DNA of 64,000 bases. Source: Desulfosoma sp. Lineage in GTDB: Bacteria > Desulfobacterota > Syntrophobacteria > Syntrophobacterales > DSM-9756. Location of the stretch: NCBI GenBank assembly GCA_037481875.1, contig JBBFKY010000010.1, forward strand, positions 1-64,000, written 5' to 3'. The number at the start of each line of letters is the position of its first letter. Position 1 is the first letter of the stretch. Of this stretch, positions 36,424-52,780 are shown piece after piece. The position numbers were made by a program, and so were the translations under genes. The notes beneath the pieces were generated by a model. That model was not told where the DNA came from, did no database searches, and saw only the letters and a program-made list of their open reading frames with translations.

Positions 36424-39024
36424 ATGGAAAGCATGGTGGAATCCCTGAGAAGACAAAGAGAATTGGTTTTGCAGGGTGCCGATGACGAAGCATTGCGTCG
36501 GCACATGAGCCTTTTGGAGATTGCGGTCATCAGTTTGCATAATCGTCTCGTAAACCGAATGGCCTCGGAATCCGAGCGGTTTCGTTCCAGCGGCGCCATC
36601 TTAGCCGTGGGACTCTTGGGACGGGGTCTTCTTGGTCCTCAGGATCCGGTAAGCCTTTTATGGCTGCGCACGGAGACCTTTCCTTGGGACGAGAATGCGC
36701 AGCGGGAGATAGTAACGCCCCTCAAAGAGGCCGGGTGGCAGGTGCGTTTGCAATGTGCCACGATCCCGGAACTGTTGGAGGAAGCGGGATCTCGGCTAGG
36801 TTTCTTTTTTGAACTGCTCGATGCCCGCTATCTTTCCGGAAACCGACAATTGGTGGCCGAACTGGATCATGCTCTGGACGATTTCATCCTTGAGCATCAA
36901 CGACCCCTGTTAGACCATCTCTATGAAGGGATTCGAGCACGTCAAGCACGGCTTTCCATGGCCGAAGACTGGCTGGAACCAGACATGCTGGATAGCCCGG
37001 GAGCCCTCAAAGACATCGATACCATTCGCTTTGCCGCGCGTATCCTTTTGGACGTTCGCTGCTTTGACGATGCCATTTTTCAAGGATATCTGACGCGCAA
37101 GGAAGTGGATCGACTGCAAAATGCAGAAAAAAAACTGCTTAAATGGCTCAATCTGCTTCGCACCGTGAAGGGTGACCGCCAGAGTGTTCTGGATTTCAAG
37201 GTTCAAGAGATTTTGGCCGAAAAACTAGGCTACAGCGGCAGGTCCGGCTTTCTTCCTGTGGAATCTTTCATGCAAGAAGTGCATGAAACACTGCATGACG
37301 TGTTTTGTGTCAGTTCAGAGTTTTGCGAACGTCTTCAGGAGACAGGGAAAATCGCCTTGGGGCCTTCGCCTTCGGGACCTAGAGTGGCCGTAGAAGAAGG
37401 AGTGTCTCTGGTTGGTGGACGGCTCCATGTGGATCCGGGACGCCTTGAGCCCACCGCAGCCAACGTGATCCGCCTCTATGTGTTGGCGGCGCAGCACAGA
37501 GCCGGCTTTTCCAGTGCCACGCGTCGTTGGCTGCATCATCACCGTAGCGTTGTGGAAACCTCCACAGGGGACCCCGAGGTCCAAGAGGCTTTTCTACGGT
37601 TGCTGTCCATCGATGACGGTCATGTATCGGTGATTCGGCGCTTCTACAATGACGGATTTTTAAGGGCTCTCGTTCCCGAAACGTCCTTGGTGCACGCCCT
37701 CGTGCAACACGACGCTTTCCACGTATATCCGTTACATGAACACCATTTGAGGACCTTGCGGGAAATCAAACGGCTTAAAGCCGGCGAGTATCAAGAGGAA
37801 GAGCCGGAACTGACGTCATTGGCCCAGGAAATGGGGGACAATCCATGGCTTTCTCTGGCGGCTCTCTTTCACGACATCGGCAAGCATGCTGGCAGTCATC
37901 ATGCCAAACATGGAGCGGATATGTTTCCTGTGATCGCTCGGCGTCTCGGCATTAGCCCCGAAGGGTCTGATTTGGTCAGTTTCCTGATTCGAAACCATCT
38001 GCTGCTTATGGACACAGCTTCCATGAGGGATCTCGGCGACATGGAACTTCTGGTTCAATGCGCCCGTACCGTTGAAGATCCTGAACGATTGCATCTGCTC
38101 ATGCTCTTGAGTTTTGCGGACATGATGGCCACAGGGCCGCGAGCTGTGCAGAAATGGCGGGATACCCCGGTCCATGAGCTTTACCGAAAGTTACTGGATC
38201 TTCTGGAAAAGGGGGAGCCTGGGGAAGAGATTCTTGCAGAACGCCTGCAAAGACTGAAGGAGGCGGTTCTTGAAAAAATGGCCCACTTGGTGGACCGCTC
38301 CCGCTTAGAAGAACACTTTCGTGACCTGGCTCCTCGTTACGTGCTGACCAGTTCCCCGGAAGCCGTGGCGCGCCATCTCCGTTTGGAAATGGAACTAGGA
38401 CCTGAACCCGAAGCCTTTGTCTGGGAAGTGGAAAAGGAAAACGGAGGCGTGGAAATCACGGTGCTCAGCCGCGAAGTGCCTGGTTTTCTTGCAAAAGCGG
38501 CCGGCGTTTTGACCCTCCACAATCTGGATATTCGAGACGCTCGAGTTTTTACCAAAAAAAACGGTGTCATGATTTTCGTTTTCAGATGCCGATTTGTTTT
38601 TCCAACCCAGGAAGAACCCGATTGGGGATCGGTGCGCGCCGATCTGCGTCGTCTTCTGGAGGGGCGATTGGCTCTGGATTACCGCATCGCCGCCCATGCA
38701 GCGGCCAAAAGATTATCGCCTGCACGCTCCTTGATTCCCAGTCCCAGCCGTGTTCTTTTGGATAACGATTCGGCCAAGGATTACACCATCGTGGAAGTGT
38801 ACACCATGGACCGCCCGGGGCTTTTGTACACCATCACTCGAACGCTCTTGGATTTACAAGTGCGCATCTATGTGGCCAAAATCACCACCAAGGTGGATCA
38901 GGTCGCGGATATCTTCTACATCAAGAATCATCGAGGAGAAAAAGTGACCGACCGCGAACAGATGGATGAGATTTGTCGGGCGCTGCTTTTCTATCTCGAC
39001 GGACCGGCTGGGTTCGAATCCTAA
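36424..39024 (+). CDS. glnD: GlnD-like PII regulator with degenerate nucleotidyltransferase domain
   Basis: An 866-residue homologue of the bifunctional PII uridylyltransferase/uridylyl-removing enzyme. Order: nucleotidyltransferase region (60-200), helical linker, HD phosphohydrolase domain (about 450-590; H483-D484 in LFHDIGKHAGSHH), ACT1 (about 677-745) and ACT2 (about 787-860), the glutamine sensors. In normal GlnD the first domain reads GGxGRGELxPxSDxD; here residues 62-80 read AVGLLGRGLLGPQDPVSLL, so both catalytic Asp are gone, and the later Asp is not evident. The protein probably keeps de-uridylylation or glutamine sensing but not uridylyl transfer. ATG 36424 follows TGGAGA. A normal glnD may exist elsewhere. 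Confidence 0.85.
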   Translation: MESMVESLRRQRELVLQGADDEALRRHMSLLEIAVISLHNRLVNRMASESERFRSSGAILAVGLLGRGLLGPQDPVSLLWLRTETFPWDENAQREIVTPLKEAGWQVRLQCATIPELLEEAGSRLGFFFELLDARYLSGNRQLVAELDHALDDFILEHQRPLLDHLYEGIRARQARLSMAEDWLEPDMLDSPGALKDIDTIRFAARILLDVRCFDDAIFQGYLTRKEVDRLQNAEKKLLKWLNLLRTVKGDRQSVLDFKVQEILAEKLGYSGRSGFLPVESFMQEVHETLHDVFCVSSEFCERLQETGKIALGPSPSGPRVAVEEGVSLVGGRLHVDPGRLEPTAANVIRLYVLAAQHRAGFSSATRRWLHHHRSVVETSTGDPEVQEAFLRLLSIDDGHVSVIRRFYNDGFLRALVPETSLVHALVQHDAFHVYPLHEHHLRTLREIKRLKAGEYQEEEPELTSLAQEMGDNPWLSLAALFHDIGKHAGSHHAKHGADMFPVIARRLGISPEGSDLVSFLIRNHLLLMDTASMRDLGDMELLVQCARTVEDPERLHLLMLLSFADMMATGPRAVQKWRDTPVHELYRKLLDLLEKGEPGEEILAERLQRLKEAVLEKMAHLVDRSRLEEHFRDLAPRYVLTSSPEAVARHLRLEMELGPEPEAFVWEVEKENGGVEITVLSREVPGFLAKAAGVLTLHNLDIRDARVFTKKNGVMIFVFRCRFVFPTQEEPDWGSVRADLRRLLEGRLALDYRIAAHAAAKRLSPARSLIPSPSRVLLDNDSAKDYTIVEVYTMDRPGLLYTITRTLLDLQVRIYVAKITTKVDQVADIFYIKNHRGEKVTDREQMDEICRALLFYLDGPAGFES

Positions 39025-39042
39025 GAAACGAGGATGCATTCC

Positions 39043-40068
39043 ATGTCTCTCTATATTCGTCGTCTATGGGAAGGCGGTCACACCCATTATGTGCTTAAGG
39101 AATCTTATTGGAACGGATCGTGTTTTGCCACGAGAAGCATTCTCGATTTGGGAACGGATCCCACGGAGTATATTGTTTACACGGGAGGCAATGGGTTCTA
39201 CTTCAGTGACGCTGTGGAGGAGGCTTTTGCCCGCTTGGGGCTAGAACCGGAAACGGAGGATTTGGAAAAAGCTTTTCTGTTGTATCTTGATCCGCACATT
39301 CGAAGAATTATAGAAAATTTTACCACGGGAAAAAAAGCACCTTCCCTTTCATGGAATGCCGAAGAATGTGCCCATCACCAAAGATTCCTTCATCCTTTCG
39401 ATAAAAGGCGTATGCATTTTTTGCGATGCGGTCGAATCGACATTGGAAACCTGGAAGGTAAATCCTGGAAGTTTCTCAATGTGCTGTGCGATAAAAGCCG
39501 AGACGAGATCGAACATGTCATTGAGGGTATGGAAAAGGATCTCCGTCCTCAGGAGCGAAGAAACTACCTGTTTACGGCGCTGGAACTTCAAAGGTACTTT
39601 CCAAGCCATCTTCTGAAAAACAATCCCGCCGCCTTGGATTCGGAAAAAGTTGATGCCTATTTCCTCGAGGAAATTTGCAGACTGAACGAAGACGCCACAT
39701 TCTTTTTCGGCGTTGAAGACCATGATCCTCGAAAGCTGCATTCTTTCCTTGTCAAGTACGTCATCATGTATTTCGATCACAGCTTCACCCCTGAATCCTT
39801 GTGGAACCGGGTCTTTAACGACTTTCTACGCAACCGACAATTTCGCTTTCAGCCTCCTGCACGCCAGACCTTAACGGAAGAGGAAGCCTGTGCCTGTTTG
39901 GGACTCCATCCAAAAGAATACCGGGCCATGAGCGCGCAGGCTCTGACCCGGCATTATCGTAAGCGAGCCAAAAAGCACCACCCTGATACGGGCGGGGATC
40001 ACGAAACCTTCATTCGCCTTTCTCAAGCCTACGAGTGCCTCGTTCGCCGCAAGGCACATCGGCATTAA
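39043..40068 (+). CDS. Protein with C-terminal J-domain (DnaJ-like) and unknown N-terminal region
   Basis: A 341-residue cytoplasmic protein. The last 70 residues form a J-domain: RHYRKRAKKHHPDTGGDHETF with the HPD motif at 313-315, then FIRLSQAYECL. This part should stimulate a DnaK-type ATPase. The first 270 residues, with no membrane segment, begin with a short repeat-poor domain (MSLYIRRLWEGGHTHYVLKE) and were not recognised. ATG 39043 after GAGG is preferred to ATG 39034. It follows glnD by 18 bases, so the two may be co-transcribed. It is not DnaJ itself: no G/F region or zinc fingers. Confidence 0.75.
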   Translation: MSLYIRRLWEGGHTHYVLKESYWNGSCFATRSILDLGTDPTEYIVYTGGNGFYFSDAVEEAFARLGLEPETEDLEKAFLLYLDPHIRRIIENFTTGKKAPSLSWNAEECAHHQRFLHPFDKRRMHFLRCGRIDIGNLEGKSWKFLNVLCDKSRDEIEHVIEGMEKDLRPQERRNYLFTALELQRYFPSHLLKNNPAALDSEKVDAYFLEEICRLNEDATFFFGVEDHDPRKLHSFLVKYVIMYFDHSFTPESLWNRVFNDFLRNRQFRFQPPARQTLTEEEACACLGLHPKEYRAMSAQALTRHYRKRAKKHHPDTGGDHETFIRLSQAYECLVRRKAHRH

Positions 40069-50372: not shown

Positions 50373-52178
50373 ATGATTCCCCCCAAAGAATTTCTACGGA
50401 AGATCAAACCCTTTTCTTTTCTTCACGAGGAACATTTGACCGCGCTCACAAGCAGTCTGGACGTGGCCATGTACGGTGCGGGCATGGTCATTTGTGCCAA
50501 GGATGAGGTGTGCCCTTCCGTGTTTCTTGTTTTTTCAGGGCTTGTCGGCCTTTACGATGGCGACGAACTTGTGGATCTTGTTTCGAAAGGCGAAATATTC
50601 GGGCTGCTTTCCGCCTTGCATCAGACACCGTCCTATTACGAAGCTCGCGCTCTGGAAGACAGCATCTGTTACCTTATCGACGGCGAGGCCTTTGAAAAAG
50701 TCTATCGAGCCCATAGTGCCTTTGCGTCCTTTTTCAGCACCTTCATTGAGCGGCGTTTTCGTTCCTTTGCTCGGTTAGCCCGTCAAGAGGAGTCCATGCA
50801 GGACGGTGCCACGGGGGTCCTGGTGGAAACCTTGGTGACCAAGGCGCCGGTGACGTGTGCCCCTGAACGCCTAGTGCGAGAAGCTGTGAGCCTTATGGAT
50901 GCTCACGGTGTAGGTTCCGTGGTGGTCACAGAACACGATCAACCCGTGGGCATTTTGACCAACCGGGACATGCGACGGGTTCTTGTTTATGGAAGTCCTG
51001 ACAGTGCGGTCAGGGACTTCATGTCGGCTCCGGTCATCACCCTGGATCGCCGAGCTTCGGTGCTGGAAGCCTACACGACCCTTCTTCGTACAGGGATCGA
51101 CCATCTGGTGGTGATGGATCGGGACCGGGTTTACGGGGTTGTCACCAGCAAGGATGTTCTGGCAAAGATGGAGCCATCCTCGTCCATTTTGACTATTTAT
51201 CGAAAAATCCTTAAAGCTGTGGATCTGGAAGAGCTCAAGAGCGCCTTTCATGCCATTCGCGTGGCCGTCTCGGAAATGGCTCTTAAAGGGGTTCATTTTT
51301 ACCAGCTGTCTCAAATGATCACAGCCGTTTATGACACTGTGGTGGTTCGTGTTTTGCAAAGGCACACGGCTCCCCATGAGGCGAAGCATTTTGCTTGGAT
51401 TCACACGGGCAGTTCCGGCCGCAAGGAACAGATTCTCACGACGGATCAGGACAGTGCCATCATCTGCGGAACAGCCGGCCCATGTTTGGACGTGGCCGAA
51501 GCCGTCACGCACAATCTGGAGGCTATTGGGATTCCGAGATGCCCTGCAGACTATATGGCTTCCAATCCAAAGTGGCATCTCAGCCTCGACGAGTGGAAAG
51601 AGAACTTTCGCCGTTGGTTTGTGGAACCCATTCCGGATCATGTGCGTTATCTGACAGTCTTTCTGGACTTGAGAGTCGTTTACGGGAATGGCGAGTTGTT
51701 GGCACGGCTGATCAGCGCCATTCATGAAAGCGTGACCAACCAAGCGGTGCGTTTTCTGGCCTATGATGCAGCCTTACATGAACCGCCCATCGGCATTTTT
51801 GGCATCAAGCATCGAGATCGAGGCATTGACTTGAAAAAATATGGCATTTACCCCATTGCCAACGGTATTCGCGTGATGATTTTGGCCAATAGAATGCTCA
51901 ACGTGACCAATACCAGGGAACGCATCGAAGCGCTGCGGGATGGTGGGGTTTTGGGTAAGGACACCGCCGGCGATCTTTTGGAAGCATACGCCTTTCTTCA
52001 AGATCTTCGTCTCAGGCATCAGGCTCGAGCCCTCAAACAGGGCCGCTCGCAAACAAACCTTATCATGGCGGATCAATTGGACAAGATGGATCTGCTGGTC
52101 TTGAAAGAATCTCTGAAAGTGGTGGCGTCTTTTCAAAAGAACCTCAAAGCCCTTTACGGCGTGGATCGAGGGCTTTGA
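50373..52178 (+). CDS. CRP-like/CBS/DUF294 putative signal-transduction protein
   Basis: A 601-residue cytoplasmic protein. Order: cyclic-nucleotide-binding-like domain (10-130), a CBS pair (about 145-265; GVGSVVVTEHDQPVGILTNRD and GIDHLVVMDRDRVYGVVTSKD), a nucleotidyltransferase-like DUF294 domain with GSSGRKEQILTTDQDSAI, and the DUF294 C-terminal helical domain. The GS and DxD residues of a nucleotidyltransferase are kept. Such proteins are regular neighbours of acetate symporters and of a DEDDh exonuclease, as here, and are thought to control transport (family knowledge). ATG 50373 follows GGAAGG. Its stop overlaps the exonuclease start. Confidence 0.86.
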   Translation: MIPPKEFLRKIKPFSFLHEEHLTALTSSLDVAMYGAGMVICAKDEVCPSVFLVFSGLVGLYDGDELVDLVSKGEIFGLLSALHQTPSYYEARALEDSICYLIDGEAFEKVYRAHSAFASFFSTFIERRFRSFARLARQEESMQDGATGVLVETLVTKAPVTCAPERLVREAVSLMDAHGVGSVVVTEHDQPVGILTNRDMRRVLVYGSPDSAVRDFMSAPVITLDRRASVLEAYTTLLRTGIDHLVVMDRDRVYGVVTSKDVLAKMEPSSSILTIYRKILKAVDLEELKSAFHAIRVAVSEMALKGVHFYQLSQMITAVYDTVVVRVLQRHTAPHEAKHFAWIHTGSSGRKEQILTTDQDSAIICGTAGPCLDVAEAVTHNLEAIGIPRCPADYMASNPKWHLSLDEWKENFRRWFVEPIPDHVRYLTVFLDLRVVYGNGELLARLISAIHESVTNQAVRFLAYDAALHEPPIGIFGIKHRDRGIDLKKYGIYPIANGIRVMILANRMLNVTNTRERIEALRDGGVLGKDTAGDLLEAYAFLQDLRLRHQARALKQGRSQTNLIMADQLDKMDLLVLKESLKVVASFQKNLKALYGVDRGL

Positions 52179-52780
52179 TGCTTGTAACCGAAGCAGCGTT
52201 TGTGTCCGTGGATGTGGAAACCACCGGGTTGGATGTGCGAAAGGACGAGATTATCGCCATCGCCTTGGTGCCTATGGAAGGCTTGAAGATTCGAGTGCGC
52301 CATGCCTTCTACACCTTGGTGAAACCCCGTAAGTATCGGCCGCACACCATGAAGTACCATGGAATCGCCCTTGAGTCTCTGGAGCGGGCTCCGAGTTTTG
52401 AAGAAATCGCTCACGAACTTTTATCCCGCTGTCAAGGCATTCTTTTGGGACACTGTGTGCACATCGACTATGAGTTTCTTCGACGTGCATTTAAAGGGAT
52501 GGGAATACGATTTGAGCGTGATATGGTAGACATTGCGGAAGTGGAGAAATGGATCGGGCAGAAAACTTCGCATCGGCCGAAATGTGAAGAACTGAGTCTA
52601 GATGCTTTAATCCATCGCTACGGCCTCAAGGAACATTACCGGCATCACGCTTTAGCCGACGCTTTTTTTGCAGCTCAGATTTTTCAGATTCAGATGACAC
52701 GATACGGTGTTCCTTATGTCCATCAGTTGCTTAATCAGCTTAAAAACCAAAAAGTCTGCGACACACCCTTTCTTCTGTAG
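52178..52780 (+). CDS. DEDDh 3'-5' exonuclease (PolC/epsilon-like)
   Basis: A 200-residue exonuclease with Exo I FVSVDVETTGLD, Exo II GHCVHIDYEFL and Exo III YRHHALADAFFAA, giving the D-E-D-H-D set. It should remove nucleotides from a 3' end, yet it is translationally overlapped (TGATG) with the CBS/DUF294 gene. In that setting it is known as part of symporter regulatory loci rather than DNA replication, though its substrate is unknown. Confidence 0.88.
   Translation: MLVTEAAFVSVDVETTGLDVRKDEIIAIALVPMEGLKIRVRHAFYTLVKPRKYRPHTMKYHGIALESLERAPSFEEIAHELLSRCQGILLGHCVHIDYEFLRRAFKGMGIRFERDMVDIAEVEKWIGQKTSHRPKCEELSLDALIHRYGLKEHYRHHALADAFFAAQIFQIQMTRYGVPYVHQLLNQLKNQKVCDTPFLL

Follow-up and report, generated by a model that had tools for sequence, protein, structure and literature searches.

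Organization of the glnD2 locus

The window (the whole stretch of DNA analysed, 64,000 nucleotides of Desulfosoma sp. contig JBBFKY010000010.1) contains an open reading frame, verified together with its translation, whose product is a paralogue of GlnD. The name GlnD2 is coined here for this protein. The features of the locus are the following:

36424-39024, + strand: glnD2, encoding an 866-aa GlnD paralogue, almost certainly uridylyltransferase (UTase)-dead, with a pseudo-nucleotidyltransferase domain, HD, ACT1 and ACT2
36571-37041, + strand: pseudo-nucleotidyltransferase domain (approximately residues 50-206), its fold kept in the predicted structure
36619-36660, + strand: degenerate UTase motif GRGLLGPQDPVSLL (residues 66-79), with P75 and S77 in place of the catalytic Asp
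36646-36648 and 36652-36654, + strand: codons of P75 and S77, the positions of the two catalytic Asp
36982-37041, + strand: degenerate second UTase motif DMLDSPGALKDIDTIRFAAR (residues 187-206), replacing HLKEGxGGLRDxHxxxW
37699-38223, + strand: HD domain (approximately residues 426-600)
38440-38658, + strand: ACT1 (approximately residues 673-745), diverged
38767-39021, + strand: ACT2 (approximately residues 782-866), the best-kept domain
39034-40068, + strand: downstream open reading frame, starting 9 bp beyond glnD2, with a J-domain at its C-terminus

Three Pfam domains scored above their gathering thresholds in GlnD2 (PF08335, 79.5 bits; HD, 29.8; ACT, 38.3), and this is the architecture of the GlnD superfamily. 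The score against the equivalog model TIGR01693 was 451.9 bits, below the cut-off of 519.4; six GlnD2 orthologues gave 427-455 bits, and canonical GlnDs of the same class 593-681. Since GlnD2 fails both this cut-off and the residues that define the UTase, "PII uridylyltransferase" should not be used as its name, although similarity could lead to that label despite the missing transferase site. The failed membership weakens the view of GlnD2 as a uridylyltransferase and not that of a sensor working in the manner of GlnD with an HD output.

Loss of the uridylyltransferase site

In the GlnD proteins that have been studied, the N-terminal nucleotidyltransferase (NT) domain attaches UMP and the central HD domain removes it (PMC4285133, PMC3480911). 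The two catalytic Asp of the NT domain (E. coli D105 and D107) aligned with P75 and S77 of GlnD2. The initial annotation had read residues 66-79 as GRGLLGPQDPVSLL and had claimed that both metal-binding Asp were lost. This was borne out by aligning the NT domain across relatives: when 22 canonical GlnDs, E. coli b0167 among them, were aligned with 34 GlnD2 orthologues, every canonical protein (22/22) had Asp in both columns and none of the orthologues (0/34) had it in either. Of the orthologues in which the motif could be read, 48 from five families, none had the DxD, whereas no canonical GlnD aligned over this motif lacked it. The consensus of the orthologues at this position is GRGxxGPxQPVxLL, in which the GRG loop is mostly conserved.

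The damage extends to the second UTase motif, KEGxGGLRD, a point overlooked by the initial annotation. Where the canonical paralogue has K187 and R194, GlnD2 has L189 and K196, and each of the two canonical residues was retained in 3% and lost in 97% of the orthologues. A displaced catalytic DxD was sought in the alignment and in the AlphaFold models of GlnD2 and canonical GlnD, and none was found; D74, the sole nearby acid, is Gln in most orthologues. Losses of canonical-invariant columns in the NT and HD domains (7/22 and 5/34, respectively) did not differ significantly (Fisher p = 0.18), and the argument therefore depends on the identity of the lost residues and not on their number. As judged from these sequences, it is nearly certain that GlnD2 is UTase-dead.

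Predicted structure

AlphaFold2 models were obtained with a mean pLDDT of 88.0 for GlnD2 and 84.5 for the canonical GlnD of a relative. Helices and strands followed one another in the same order across both NT domains, and the columns of the lost Asp lay where the same strand begins (residues 76-82 in GlnD2 and 78-84 in the canonical protein). Residues 1-302 of GlnD2 matched the N-terminal adenylyltransferase domain of GlnE (1v4a) with Z 24.0 and an rmsd of 3.9 over 293 aligned residues, and the canonical NT domain matched it with Z 23.9. In addition, the fold of residues 323-599 matched the HD region of 3wfq (Z 24.5), as did the canonical HD domain. A sequence search for solved structures gave no GlnD; what it returned was limited to the HD region of a poly(A) polymerase/tRNA-processing enzyme. 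The models thus retain the NT fold but lack the catalytic pair where it normally sits.

HD and ACT domains

The initial annotation had described the HD domain as normal. The H483-D484 pair of its motif is present as claimed, and all the metal ligands expected for an H..HD..D site (H440, H483, D484, H493, H525 and D566) are found in the window protein. The neighbouring invariant Asp (E. coli D469) did not fit that description: it corresponds to H438 in GlnD2, and the column is His in 29/34 orthologues. H440, H483, D484, H493 and H525 were kept in 34/34 orthologues and D566 in 31/34. The three exceptions are the family f4 genomes (L070, L080 and L081), in all of which the Asp of the ADxxATG motif is Val; both active sites look damaged in the GlnD2 of these genomes. 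In the four other families all the HD ligands are invariant, together with K487, R535, D536 and D539. Overall, 22 of the 34 canonical-invariant columns of the HD domain were retained in at least 90% of the orthologues. Near the HD site, Y463 is replaced by F432 and L613 by P582 in 34/34 orthologues, and F432, P436 and P582 are invariants of GlnD2's own around this site.

The ACT domains, both taken as normal in the same annotation, behaved differently from each other: none of the 14 canonical-invariant columns of ACT2 was lost, versus 5/11 in ACT1. Because the D469 position is His in 29/34 orthologues and ACT1 has suffered these losses, the HD specificity and the effector may be altered.

Canonical GlnD and PII proteins of the same genome

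A whole-genome search with PF08335 revealed a second full-length GlnD on contig C7 (G000:C7), 34% identical to GlnD2, with the motif GGFGRGQLSFFSDLDLVFL, an intact SDLD and a normal HD domain. Its gene is the next one downstream of glnB, with glnA close by. The possibility that the window protein is the only GlnD of the genome is thereby ruled out. Two full-length PII proteins were also found, GlnB (C7) and GlnK, whose gene adjoins amtB (C9), and both carry the EIYRGAEY T-loop including Tyr51. A third PII-like match is fragmentary, has an in-frame TGA and is possibly a remnant (L010; G000:C5:19359-19547).

The earlier proposal that PII control would be one-way, or that PII is not uridylylated, finds no support, given the canonical GlnD with SDLD and HD and the two Tyr51 PII proteins. 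Since canonical GlnD, GlnB and GlnK are all encoded in this genome, normal uridylylation of PII is expected, with both attachment and removal carried out by the canonical enzyme.

Distribution, descent and selection

GlnD2 was found in 38/39 genomes of the order and in 52/55 of the class, partial copies being counted, and is thus conserved class-wide. Its hosts include Desulfosoma, Desulfacinum, Desulforhabdus, Desulfoferrobacter and Syntrophobacteraceae; in Desulfacinum hydrothermale, of which a culture exists, GlnD2 is in L111. It is nearly always accompanied by a canonical GlnD, the exceptions being mostly draft or incomplete genomes. Two single-contig f5 genomes, in which absences are unsure, depart from this pattern: G044 (62% complete) has GlnD2 without canonical GlnD, and G045 (88% complete) has neither.

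In the phylogenetic tree, all 34 GlnD2 orthologues fell in one clade (SH-aLRT 100) and were grouped by host family. On this tree, the origin of GlnD2 is one old duplication or acquisition that predates the diversification of the class, followed by vertical descent. Outside the class, 15 of the best-scoring matches in 395 genomes across the phylum were inspected and all had the DxD, and plasmid-borne relatives were weak, the best among the matches listed having 27.5% identity. Pairwise dN/dS within the genus, rough values as synonymous sites are near saturation, was 0.044-0.068 for GlnD2 and 0.085-0.091 for canonical GlnD. As estimated by this comparison, GlnD2 is under purifying selection. The open-licence literature searched yielded no paper that describes a second GlnD or one without the UTase.

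Gene neighbourhood

In family f5, glnD2 comes immediately after glutamate-synthase genes in three loci (L073, L074 and L077) and immediately before the glutamine synthetase gene in two (L071 and L072). These two arrangements come from different genomes, and both flanks were never seen in one, partly as a result of contig ends. The neighbours are different in the remaining families. An enoyl-CoA hydratase neighbours glnD2 in a cluster of 13 loci (one member was tested with Pfam) and a HisH-like protein in nine loci (named by eye from the sequence). The J-domain reading frame is a neighbour of glnD2 only in the window's own family, and the neighbours in the window genome are non-nitrogen genes. 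The genomic context thus supports a nitrogen role in one family only, f5. Sigma-54 promoter matches in the window occurred at chance level, with none at approximately 36.0-36.4 kb, near glnD2, and no Rfam RNA was identified in the window or in three f5 loci.

Relation to known systems and possible function

GlnD is the textbook bifunctional glutamine sensor. GlnD2 resembles it (TIGR01693; E. coli b0167) in the NT-HD-ACT-ACT order, in an alignment that runs from end to end, in the HD metal ligands and in the predicted NT and HD folds. It differs in lacking the catalytic Asp pair and the K and R of KEGxGGLRD, in scoring below the TIGR01693 cut-off and in having invariants of its own in the N-terminal helix, in parts of the HD domain and in ACT1. 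Among solved structures, the pseudo-NT domain is best matched by the N-terminal domain of GlnE (1v4a), an adenylyl-removing domain of the NT fold. In GlnE removal is done by an intact NT site, whereas in GlnD2 the NT site is dead and any removal would fall to the HD domain. Plant ACR (ACT-repeat) proteins, which are described as structurally similar to GlnD (PMC12702975), share with GlnD2 the presence of GlnD-related ACT domains without a UTase, and the Pfam ACR9 ACT model matches ACT2. ACR proteins consist of ACT repeats (PMC12702975), whereas GlnD2 retains the NT fold and the HD domain.

The explanation that we prefer, with nearly an even chance of being correct, is that GlnD2 is a UTase-dead paralogue acting as a removal-only, amino-acid-gated PII-UMP hydrolase beside a normal GlnD. 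On this explanation, glnD2 arose long ago as a paralogue of glnD, was passed on vertically, lost UTase activity and now works alongside the bifunctional GlnD. Its HD domain would hydrolyse PII-UMP (GlnB-UMP and/or GlnK-UMP), gated through ACT2 by an amino acid, probably glutamine, and the pseudo-NT domain would be retained as a structural or PII-docking module. UMP could then be taken off PII more rapidly than by canonical GlnD on its own, or under conditions that this enzyme by itself does not allow. The absence of UTase activity, an active HD site, PII-UMP as substrate and glutamine as effector are what we infer for this protein. The remaining options of the initial annotation, a new glutamine-sensing role or a removal-only activity, come close to this explanation once they are placed beside a normal GlnD.

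Against the removal-only reading, a bifunctional GlnD with an intact HD domain is already in the cell. The change of D469 to His, the losses in ACT1, the loss of D566 in f4 and the non-nitrogen neighbours in the window genome also argue against it. Moreover, as D566 is Val in f4, HD catalysis cannot be the sole conserved function everywhere. We also give considerable weight, somewhat short of an even chance, to a broader possibility, namely that GlnD2 is a signalling protein in its own right throughout the class. It would then be a gated HD hydrolase whose substrate is not PII-UMP, or else a partner of PII or GlnD that senses amino acids without catalysis. If so, these bacteria would have two GlnD-type sensors with different outputs.

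One form of non-catalytic protein, a pseudoenzyme serving as glutamine-responsive scaffold or competitor that binds PII or canonical GlnD, with a structural or vestigial HD domain, seems unlikely. It would accommodate the f4 genomes, all three of which keep the gene without the HD ligand D566, as well as a UTase site that is dead everywhere and an ACT2 that is the best-kept domain. The GlnD2-specific invariants S37, N40, N44 and R54 in the N-terminal helix would be a candidate new binding surface. Yet the invariance of the HD ligands and of K487, R535, D536 and D539 in four families is seemingly beyond the needs of a scaffold.

The odds are decidedly against an HD domain active on another substrate, which could be another nucleotidylylated protein, such as AMP-modified glutamine synthetase, or a free nucleotide. 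The changes near the HD site (Y463 to F432, D469 to H438 and L613 to P582) and, in f5, the position of the gene next to glutamine synthetase or glutamate synthase are in its favour, but GlnD2 has the architecture of GlnD along its full length and PII is the only known substrate of GlnD (PMC4285133).

That GlnD2 still uridylylates, with acids located elsewhere in the NT domain, is highly improbable. The preserved NT fold and the mostly conserved GRG loop speak for it, but neither Asp has a conserved acid in its place, the conservation of D74 is poor, the K and R of the second motif are also lost, and the modelled secondary structure preserves the register of the lost Asp. Finally, a sequencing error or a decaying gene, for which nothing speaks beyond the missing motif, was ruled out by the full-length reading frame, the low dN/dS, the same loss in 48 genomes of five families and the single clade in the tree.

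Attachment and removal, the halves of a classic two-way switch, may thus have been separated in this class. A conserved half-switch paralogue together with a complete GlnD in one cell is a natural separation-of-function experiment, through which it can be tested whether attachment and removal must share one protein, to what the ACT domains respond and how ammonium assimilation is tuned in syntrophic and sulfate-reducing bacteria.

Additional observations

A GlnE-like protein of 1270-1295 aa, similar in its N-terminal part to the ACT region at the C-terminus of GlnD, was observed in families f4 and f5 near glnB, glnD and glnA (L086:4258-8106, - strand; L091:4710-8519, - strand; L090:8255-12139, + strand; L087:15326-17224, + strand). 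It is apparently an ACT-GlnE fusion; the L087 reading frame has 633 aa and that of L090 was assigned by size, position and sequence start only. In the window, a second protein of the nucleotidyltransferase fold is encoded approximately 11 kb downstream of glnD2 (50373-52178, + strand). It has cNMP-binding, CBS, DUF294 and DUF294_C domains and the motif GSSGRKEQILTTDQDS, in which the DxD is present, and its gene is followed by that of a 3'-5' exonuclease (52175-52780, + strand).
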